A DNA stretch of 41,852 nt from Clostridia bacterium (GTDB lineage: Bacteria; Bacillota; Clostridia; Oscillospirales; QAMX01), in NCBI GenBank assembly GCA_017414715.1, contig JAFQKV010000074.1, positions 1 to 41,852 on the forward strand. Direction: 5' to 3'. Every line of letters starts with the position of its first letter. Position 1 is the stretch's first letter. This document shows positions 20,123 to 21,926 of the stretch, one piece after another. The translations under genes and the position numbers were made by a program. The notes under the pieces were generated by a model. That model saw only the letters and a program-made list of their open reading frames with translations. It made no database searches and had not been told where the DNA came from.

Positions 20123-20530
20123 ATGTTCTATAAGCCCAAGAAAGCGTTCTTCTACGGCACCGGCCGCAAGAAGTCTTCCGTCGCCCGTGTTCGCATCTTC
20201 CCCGAAGGCACCGGCGCCGTCACCATCAACAACCGCGAGATGGACAACTACTTCGGTCTCGACACCCTGAAGCTGCTCGTCCGTCAGCCCTTCATGGTCA
20301 CCGATACCCTCGGCAAGTTTGACGTTGTCGTCACCGTTGCCGGCGGCGGCGTTACCGGCCAGGCCGGCGCTATCCGTCACGGTATCTCCCGTGCTCTGCT
20401 CCAGGTCGATGAGAGCTACCGTCCCCTTCTGAAGAAGGCCGGTCTCCTCACCCGTGACCCGCGCATGAAGGAGAGAAAGAAGTACGGTCTGAAGGCTGCA
20501 CGCCGTGCACCTCAGTTCTCCAAGAGATAA
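20123..20530 (+). CDS. rpsI: 30S ribosomal protein S9 (uS9)
   Basis: A small-subunit protein whose C-terminal tail reaches the P-site tRNA. At 135 residues it has [20 protein letters not shown] near the N-terminus, [19 protein letters not shown] in the middle, and the diagnostic basic tail ending APQFSKR. The GGGAGG is 9 nt before the ATG. It is the last gene of the rplM operon. The nearest good intrinsic terminator is the hairpin at 20710-20757, about 180 bp downstream. Confidence 0.98.
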
Positions 20531-20574
20531 CGTTCCGGACACCTTTTCCCCTCATCTTCCGTCATCGGACGGAA

Positions 20575-20605
20575 TTGCCGCATTTCCTTCCCTCGGCTGT
20601 ATAAT
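20575..20605 (+). promoter_or_regulatory. Possible promoter of the yabE-like transcript
   Basis: A perfect TATAAT (20600-20605) has TTGCCG (20575-20580) upstream, but with a 19-bp spacer and no TGN. If used, the leader would be about 310 nt and would include the terminator hairpin, which implies attenuation. No better promoter is visible between the terminator and the gene. Confidence 0.35.
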
Positions 20606-20709
20606 TCCGGGCATACGTGCATATACTGTTATCGGTATTTCCATGCTGCCCATACAGTCACCCCCGCAAGTCTTTTGCGGGTCAAGCAAGATCTGTTTTT
20701 CCACGCATT

Positions 20710-20757
20710 ACGGTGTCGGGGCTTTTGTGAAACATCAGAAGACCCGACACCGTTTTT
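20710..20757 (+). terminator. Long-stem intrinsic terminator or attenuator
   Basis: ACGGTGTCGGG (20710-20720) pairs perfectly with 20743-20753. After one G/A mismatch the stem continues with CTTTTG (20722-20727) and CAGAAG (20736-20741) around an 8-nt loop, and TTTTT follows to 20757. It could end the rplM-rpsI transcript or act as an attenuator for the yabE-like gene. Confidence 0.85.
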
Positions 20758-20760
20758 ACC

Positions 20761-20916
20761 GGAGAAAGACAGTCGTTTGCCGGACAGGGACAGGCTTATG
20801 CGAGTGCCGTGAGACCTTCGGCGTGTTCCCACCGTCATCGGGAAGCCGATCGTTACCTTGAAACGCTTTCTTCCATTTTGCAAACTTCAAGGCAATCCGG
20901 CACGGATCAATGGAGG
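20761..20916 (+). promoter_or_regulatory. Putative cis-regulatory RNA sequestering the yabE-like ribosome-binding site
   Basis: A closing stem pairs CGTTT (20774-20778) with AAACG (20861-20865). It extends with GAAAG (20764-20768) to CTTTC (20866-20870) and GGA (20761-20763) to TCC (20872-20874). Inside are small hairpins such as TTCCC/GGGAA (20826-20830 / 20840-20844). The 3' strand of the closing stem overlaps CTTCCATT (20870-20877), which can instead pair along all 8 positions, with one G-U, with AATGGAGG (20909-20916), the ribosome-binding site. The two folds exclude each other, as in a translational riboswitch. The segment CCGATCGTTACCTTGAAACG partly resembles the 3' conserved strand of c-di-AMP (ydaO) riboswitches, but the GGGGUGAAUCC core is not clearly present. 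Confidence 0.45.
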
Positions 20917-20921
20917 CTTTT

Positions 20922-21926
20922 ATGCTGAATCGCATTATCTCCCGCGTTACCGAATTCCCCTCTACGCTTGCCGGCCGCATCACGCTGACCGCCGCCCTTG
21001 CCGCCGCAAGCCTTTCTCTCATTCTCGTCAACTCCCACCTTGCGGGCGTTGAAAAGACCTACACCGCAGAAAGCGATGTGCTTTCCGCCGGTATTACCGT
21101 CGAAAACTTTGCCGCTGATTTCAGCGATGATCATTACGTTCTCCGCGACACCGGAGAAGCTGCCGCAAACGACGGCGTAAGTGCCGTCTATTTTCCCGTT
21201 ACCGTGGTGGATCTCGGTGACAGCATCACCTATCTCTGCGCCGATGAGACCGTTGCCGAGCTGCTTGCCCGCACCGGCTACACGCTGGAGGAGGGTGATA
21301 CCGTCGCTCCCGCCCTCGACACGCCCCTCTCCCGGGGCGATATTGTCCGCATCCACCGGGTCCGAACCGTTACGGTGACCGTCAATGAGGTCATTCCCTT
21401 TGACGTCAATTACATCAACGACAAAAACCTTGCCTCCGGCGATACCTCCGTCATTACGGCAGGCATCAACGGGCAGAAAAAGTGCACCTATTCCATCGTT
21501 TACGAAAACGGCAAGGAAGTGGGGCGCACCCTCCTCTCCTCCACGGTGACCCGCAAGGCCACCGCCGCGGTCATCCGCCGCGGAAGCACCGAGGAAGGCG
21601 GTTATATCACTCTTGCGGACGGTACCGTCCGCCGTTACACCAAGGTCATGCGCCTGCAGGCCACGGCCTATAATTCCGCCAACACCTCCAACATCACCGC
21701 CTCCGGTACCGAGCCAAAGTGGGGCACCGTGGCGGTGGACCGCAGAGTCATTCCCCTGGGTACCGAGATCTTTGTTACCAGCCTGAACGGTGCCTGGTCC
21801 TACGGGGTGGGCCTCTGTGAGGATACCGGTGTCATCGGACAGCGGGTCGATCTGTATATGAACTCCCTGGAGGAGTGCTACCAGTTCGGCCGCCGGGACG
21901 TTTACGTCTACATCCTTGCAGACTGA
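20922..21926 (+). CDS. YabE-like cell-wall protein with G5 and 3D domains
   Basis: Probably an exported or membrane-tethered peptidoglycan-active protein of the YabE/RpfB-related group. An N-terminal hydrophobic segment (about residues 16-36) is an anchor or uncleaved signal. A DUF348-like region follows (about 75-125), then a G5 domain (about 127-200) and a C-terminal 3D domain (about 235-334). The three Asp of the 3D domain are visible in VAVDRRVIPLGT, LCEDTGVIG and RVDLYMNS. It lacks the Rpf lysozyme-like domain. The start is MLNRII with GGAGG 5 nt upstream; an ATG at 20910 would overlap that site. It lies next to rsmA, as yabE does in B. subtilis. Its structured leader suggests RNA-level control. 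Confidence 0.9.
   Translation: MLNRIISRVTEFPSTLAGRITLTAALAAASLSLILVNSHLAGVEKTYTAESDVLSAGITVENFAADFSDDHYVLRDTGEAAANDGVSAVYFPVTVVDLGDSITYLCADETVAELLARTGYTLEEGDTVAPALDTPLSRGDIVRIHRVRTVTVTVNEVIPFDVNYINDKNLASGDTSVITAGINGQKKCTYSIVYENGKEVGRTLLSSTVTRKATAAVIRRGSTEEGGYITLADGTVRRYTKVMRLQATAYNSANTSNITASGTEPKWGTVAVDRRVIPLGTEIFVTSLNGAWSYGVGLCEDTGVIGQRVDLYMNSLEECYQFGRRDVYVYILAD

Follow-up and report, generated by a model that had tools for sequence, protein, structure and literature searches.

Relation to described regulatory RNAs

Several described leaders sequester the Shine-Dalgarno sequence (SD) in an H-type pseudoknot, namely the rpsO/S15 operator and the SAM-II and preQ1 translational riboswitches. 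In Gram-positive bacteria, the c-di-AMP riboswitch (ydaO/yuaA, RF00379) is known ahead of genes for the cell wall and for osmolytes. In Bacillus subtilis, yabE is controlled by the antisense RNA S25 (sigma X/M) (PMC8464778). The locus reported here, a candidate leader between rpsI and a yabE-like gene, shares with the yabE/S25 system the type of gene (a G5 protein at the cell wall) and control at the RNA level, which is proposed here; S25 is antisense, whereas the G-U pattern of the helices described below points to the sense strand. It is comparable to the rpsO/S15, SAM-II and preQ1 leaders in that the loop of an upstream hairpin could pair with or near the SD, but its sequence is unrelated to any Rfam family and is found in one genus only. 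As after other ribosomal-protein operons, a stem with a U-tract is present between rpsI and the next gene; unlike a plain ribosomal-operon terminator, it is located about 180 nt after rpsI and is preceded by two conserved hairpins, one of them bulged. By eye, some relatives also carry a terminator-like hairpin after rpsI.

Rfam 15 returned nothing at or above gathering, either in the window or in the related leaders of genomes G001 and G002; the first-pass annotation had recognised no ligand class clearly. Matches to mir-4776 and to a snoRNA were weak, below gathering, and were attributed to chance. The RF00379 covariance model was unmatched in the window and in the three genomes of the genus (65-92% complete); of 21 family genomes, 4 matched it, on contigs other than those of their listed yabE-like genes. 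L052-L055 are the c-di-AMP riboswitches of four other family genomes, and the ORF downstream in L052 looks lipoprotein-like by eye.

Genomic context

The window, i.e. the whole stretch of 41,852 nucleotides that was analysed, is contig 45 of a 1.8-Mb Clostridia assembly. The rpsI-yabE spacer (20531-20921, 391 bp) extends from the rpsI stop codon (20528-20530) to the yabE ATG (20922), and carries the SD AATGGAGG at 20909-20916. The next gene after the yabE-like gene is ksgA. The following features border the spacer or lie at its start:

20123-20530, + strand: rpsI (ribosomal protein S9), the upstream neighbour (ORF; Pfam PF00380)
20557-20574, + strand: short hairpin after rpsI, UUCCGUC/GACGGAA, without a U-tract, 6-7 bp in all three genomes
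20922-21926, + strand: yabE-like gene with DUF348, G5 and 3D domains (Pfam)

According to these Pfam domains, the predicted product of the yabE-like gene is a YabE-like cell-wall protein. The genome likely encodes a sigma-E-type sporulation factor, for which the best match is strong and just below the curated cut-off. The spacer had been annotated as structured; its coordinates were confirmed, and the whole spacer folds better than its shuffles (z -6.8). The genome has a single copy of the spacer and only two further single sites with the terminator arm; a mobile or repeat hairpin was rejected on these grounds.

Distribution and conservation

DNA, protein and two covariance-model searches found the leader only in two more genomes, both of the same genus: G001 (89% identical) and G002 (72% identical). 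All leader comparisons are between the window, G001 and G002, three sequences being too few for formal covariation significance. Neither module of the leader was matched in 295 genomes of the order outside the genus, module 2 was also unmatched in 391 genomes of the class outside the genus, and an exact-motif scan of viral contigs gave no match. In other family members that place rpsI ahead of a YabE-like gene, the spacers are unrelated. Two isolated matches were discarded: a weak R1 match in L010, antisense within ksgA and attributed to chance, and an R2 match in G117 (L079), which covers hairpin 2 but lacks the terminator stem and has neither rpsI nor yabE close by.

Third codon positions of yabE, ksgA, tldD and pmbA, taken as a neutral yardstick, are 63-64% identical between the window and G002, and the linkers of the spacer are 51-66% identical. 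Against this background, conserved blocks stand out: P1 to hairpin 2 (86%), the terminator (91%), 20788-20814 (85%) and 20852-20921 (86%). All three genomes are identical over the runs TTGCCGCAT, GGCTGTATAATTCCGGGCAT, CTGCCCATAC, the two arms of the terminator, TGCGAGTGCCG, GCTTTCTTCCATT and CCGGCACGGATCAATGGAGGCTT. In particular, 20799-20809, 20865-20877 and 20897-20919 are invariant amid sequence diverging at the neutral rate, and the last of these runs reaches upstream past the SD.

Conserved helices were compared with a control in which the strands run parallel, a physically impossible pairing. Overall, 13 antiparallel helices were counted versus 11 parallel ones; at scores of at least 17, the counts were 8 versus 2. 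The helices named below are enriched about fourfold over this control, and one or two of them may be due to chance; weaker conserved pairings, several with terminator arms among them, should not be believed. On the + strand, the helices include G-U pairs and hardly any A-C pairs, a pattern that points to RNA of this strand.

Module 1: hairpins and terminator

The first module (20595-20757) combines two hairpins, the first of them bulged, with an intrinsic terminator of 17 pairs, and each of the three genomes, folded alone, gives the same architecture:

20595-20659, + strand: bulged hairpin, with P1 GGCUGUAU/AUACAGYC, a 6-nt bulge AAUUCC, P2 GGGCA/UGCCC and an inner stem; same minimum free energy structure in three genomes
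20663-20681, + strand: hairpin 2, CCCGC..GCGGG, kept in three genomes
20710-20758, + strand: intrinsic terminator with 11-bp arms, a 1x1 mismatch, a 6-bp inner stem and a U-tract; arms invariant in three genomes

P1 is 100% paired across the three genomes, and its two substitutions both preserve pairing (a G-U kept or a G-C restored); in G001, one double change in hairpin 2 replaces A-U by G-C. On column-shuffled alignments, the folding energy corresponds to z -7.8 for the bulged hairpin and hairpin 2, to -10.7 with the terminator added and to -8.4 for the terminator alone. Covariation counts for the module do not exceed those of its own shuffles, as expected with three sequences. The 17-bp terminator-like stem of the first-pass annotation (20710-20753) is retained, in the form listed above, in all three genomes: it is followed by UUUUU, and the U-run is interrupted in G002 (UUCUUU). 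A GC-rich stem-loop followed immediately by a U-run identifies this element as an intrinsic (Rho-independent) terminator.

Two other pairings of the first-pass annotation fared less well. The antiterminator CGGGTC/GACCCG can form in the window, but its first strand reads CGGGAT in G001, and the CGGG belongs to the 3' arm of the conserved hairpin 2. Likewise, the stem 20761-20778/20861-20874 is found in the window (8 bp, GGAGAAAG/CTTTCTTC) but acquires mismatches in G001 and disappears in G002; its 3' strand makes up the invariant P3 loop instead. Because these two pairings are not kept in the relatives, the two-state regulatory RNA built on them is not supported, either as a terminator/antiterminator switch or as a terminator/ribosome-binding-site switch. 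No conserved alternative partner of the terminator is clearly above the parallel-strand control, the others being ambiguous or at control level. In all three genomes, GACACC (20538-20543), just behind rpsI, has its complement in the 5' arm of the terminator (20712-20717); it is a possible antiterminator, with a score no higher than the parallel-strand control.

Three other candidates in the spacer were rejected: (i) a leader peptide, whose start codon (ATG, 20644) falls in a deletion in G002, (ii) a sporulation sigma-E -10-like CATACAGT at 20651, seen by eye without a -35 at the right distance and with a 3-nt deletion just upstream in G002, and (iii) an ECF-like TGAAAC at about 20859, seen by eye and altered in G001 and G002.

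Module 2: yabE 5' UTR and proposed SD pseudoknot

The second module (20799-20919) comprises the following elements:

20804-20903, + strand: closing helix GUGCCG (20804-20809)/CGGCAC (20898-20903), invariant in three genomes and hence without covariation
20818-20849, + strand: variable hairpin within the junction; every genome has a GC-rich local stem here
20856-20892, + strand: P3 hairpin CCUUGAA/UUCAAGG (arms 20856-20862/20886-20892) with the invariant loop GCUUUCUUCCAUU
20870-20916, + strand: proposed pseudoknot helix CUUCCAUU (20870-20877)/AAUGGAGG (SD, 20909-20916), 8 bp, invariant in three genomes

Since folding energy gives no signal here, the case for this module rests on conservation and compensatory change. 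Indeed, 20755-20921 by itself shows no better folding than its shuffles (z +0.36), and the MAFFT alignment of module 2 in the three genomes gives an energy z of 0.07. Alignment of the relatives yielded conserved blocks and compensatory changes in P3; module 2 showed no excess of covariation (n=3).

GUGCCG/CGGCAC can close the predicted junction; its CGGCAC strand could alternatively pair with the terminator 5' arm. The variable hairpin diverges at the neutral level (51% identity to G002). The P3 arms are CCUUGAA/UUCAAGG in the window and in G001, and CUUUGGU/ACCAAAG in G002, where seven Watson-Crick pairs are maintained via three double changes, given a one-base register correction of the alignment. 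A stem of this quality arose by chance in 0.3-1.2% of simulated cases with Watson-Crick pairs only, and in 0.5-6% with G-U pairs allowed.

The P3 loop contains the 13-base invariant run GCUUUCUUCCAUU, which includes CUUCCAUU. The complementarity of CTTCCATT (20870-20877) to the ribosome-binding site, already pointed out from the window alone, is present in all three genomes; both strands are invariant, so that no covariation is seen in the pairing. The predicted duplex (-9.0 kcal/mol) is close in energy to that of the SD with the anti-SD of 16S rRNA (-9.3 kcal/mol). Among shuffled leaders, 4.7% contain an 8-bp partner for the SD. A hairpin loop complementary to the SD and kept in relatives marks this leader as a candidate for an SD-occluding pseudoknot.

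Proposed mechanism and alternative explanations

The best explanation, to which we give an even chance, would be a two-module leader: a terminator with conserved hairpins after rplM-rpsI, then a yabE leader that could occlude its own SD by a pseudoknot. Most transcription arriving from rplM-rpsI, or from a nearby upstream promoter, would stop at module 1, and a fraction of transcripts would read through into yabE and supply its mRNA. In the yabE 5' UTR, GUGCCG/CGGCAC would enclose the variable hairpin and P3, whose loop would pair with the SD as an H-type pseudoknot, presumably holding down translation of the G5/3D cell-wall protein as long as no signal opens it. Conserved blocks, hairpins, a terminator, a compensated P3 stem and conserved SD complementarity can all be read from the sequences. 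Conservation within the genus supports a structured leader in which a terminator is present and the yabE ribosome-binding site is occluded, as first annotated. The spacer is most likely a genus-specific translational leader rather than a demonstrated riboswitch; it falls outside every described family tested and, by analogy, most likely works like the rpsO or SAM-II translational leaders. A yabE-type cell-wall gene, antisense-RNA-controlled in B. subtilis, is suggested to be under unrelated control in a genus of gut Clostridia, by a leader outside Rfam. The discovery of a ligand or protein would tie cell-wall remodelling to an RNA sensor; as it stands, the locus is a modest, testable cis-regulatory candidate.

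Less probable, but the most serious competitor, is an ordinary spacer, in which module 1 is just where rplM-rpsI ends, with its terminator, and the remainder is an unregulated yabE 5' UTR with fortuitous SD complementarity. Intrinsic terminators are common after ribosomal operons, the post-terminator region folds like its shuffles both alone and aligned, shuffled leaders do acquire SD complements at the frequency given above, and many of the weaker conserved helices equal the parallel-strand control. Against it, the three invariant runs of module 2 are embedded in a neutral-rate background and the P3 stem is compensated in G002.

It is unlikely that yabE is transcribed from a promoter of its own within the spacer and that the terminator at 20710 is a conditional attenuator. 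The candidate promoter is the following:

20575-20605, + strand: promoter-like TTGCCG-N19-TATAAT; in the three-way alignment, boxes invariant, spacing fixed and intervening sequence variable

This pattern of conservation is in favour of a promoter, as is the observation by eye that some family relatives seem to carry a yabE promoter between rpsI and yabE. However, the -35 is poor, the 19-nt spacer is long, the element was missed by the promoter scan and overlaps the P1 helix, and, as stated above, no conserved antiterminator clearly exceeds the control. Furthermore, a start near 20612 would remove P1 and most of the P2 5' arm, the best supported helices. Because P1 would be lost from such an RNA, transcription of module 1 from rpsI or further upstream is judged more likely; this is a judgement, not a result.

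Equally improbable would be a lineage-restricted and undescribed ligand- or protein-responsive leader, whose SD pseudoknot would control translation of the G5/3D protein and be coupled to the terminator after the rpsI operon. Least probable is a riboswitch or protein-responsive leader of a kind not yet described, with a ligand whose binding would stabilise or open the SD pseudoknot: a three-way junction, a variable peripheral hairpin, an SD pseudoknot and invariant unpaired segments (UGCGA before GUGCCG and GGAUC before the SD) are usual in translational riboswitches, but the element is restricted to one genus and one locus with no second copy in the genome, was not found in the order and class genomes searched outside the genus and has no Rfam match.

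Other yabE-like leaders

In G003, of another genus, the rpsI-yabE spacer (L032, 1043-1513) has another hairpin, of unlike sequence (GTCGGCTCA/TGAGCCGAC), immediately ahead of the SD; by eye, this hairpin also contains a sigma-E-like TCATGTT-N14-CATACAGT. In G015, also of another genus, the yabE-like leader (L023, 862 onward) displays by eye TTTCCC-GGGA-GGGAAA around the SD, and from this leader SD occlusion may recur in yabE-like leaders with unrelated sequence.
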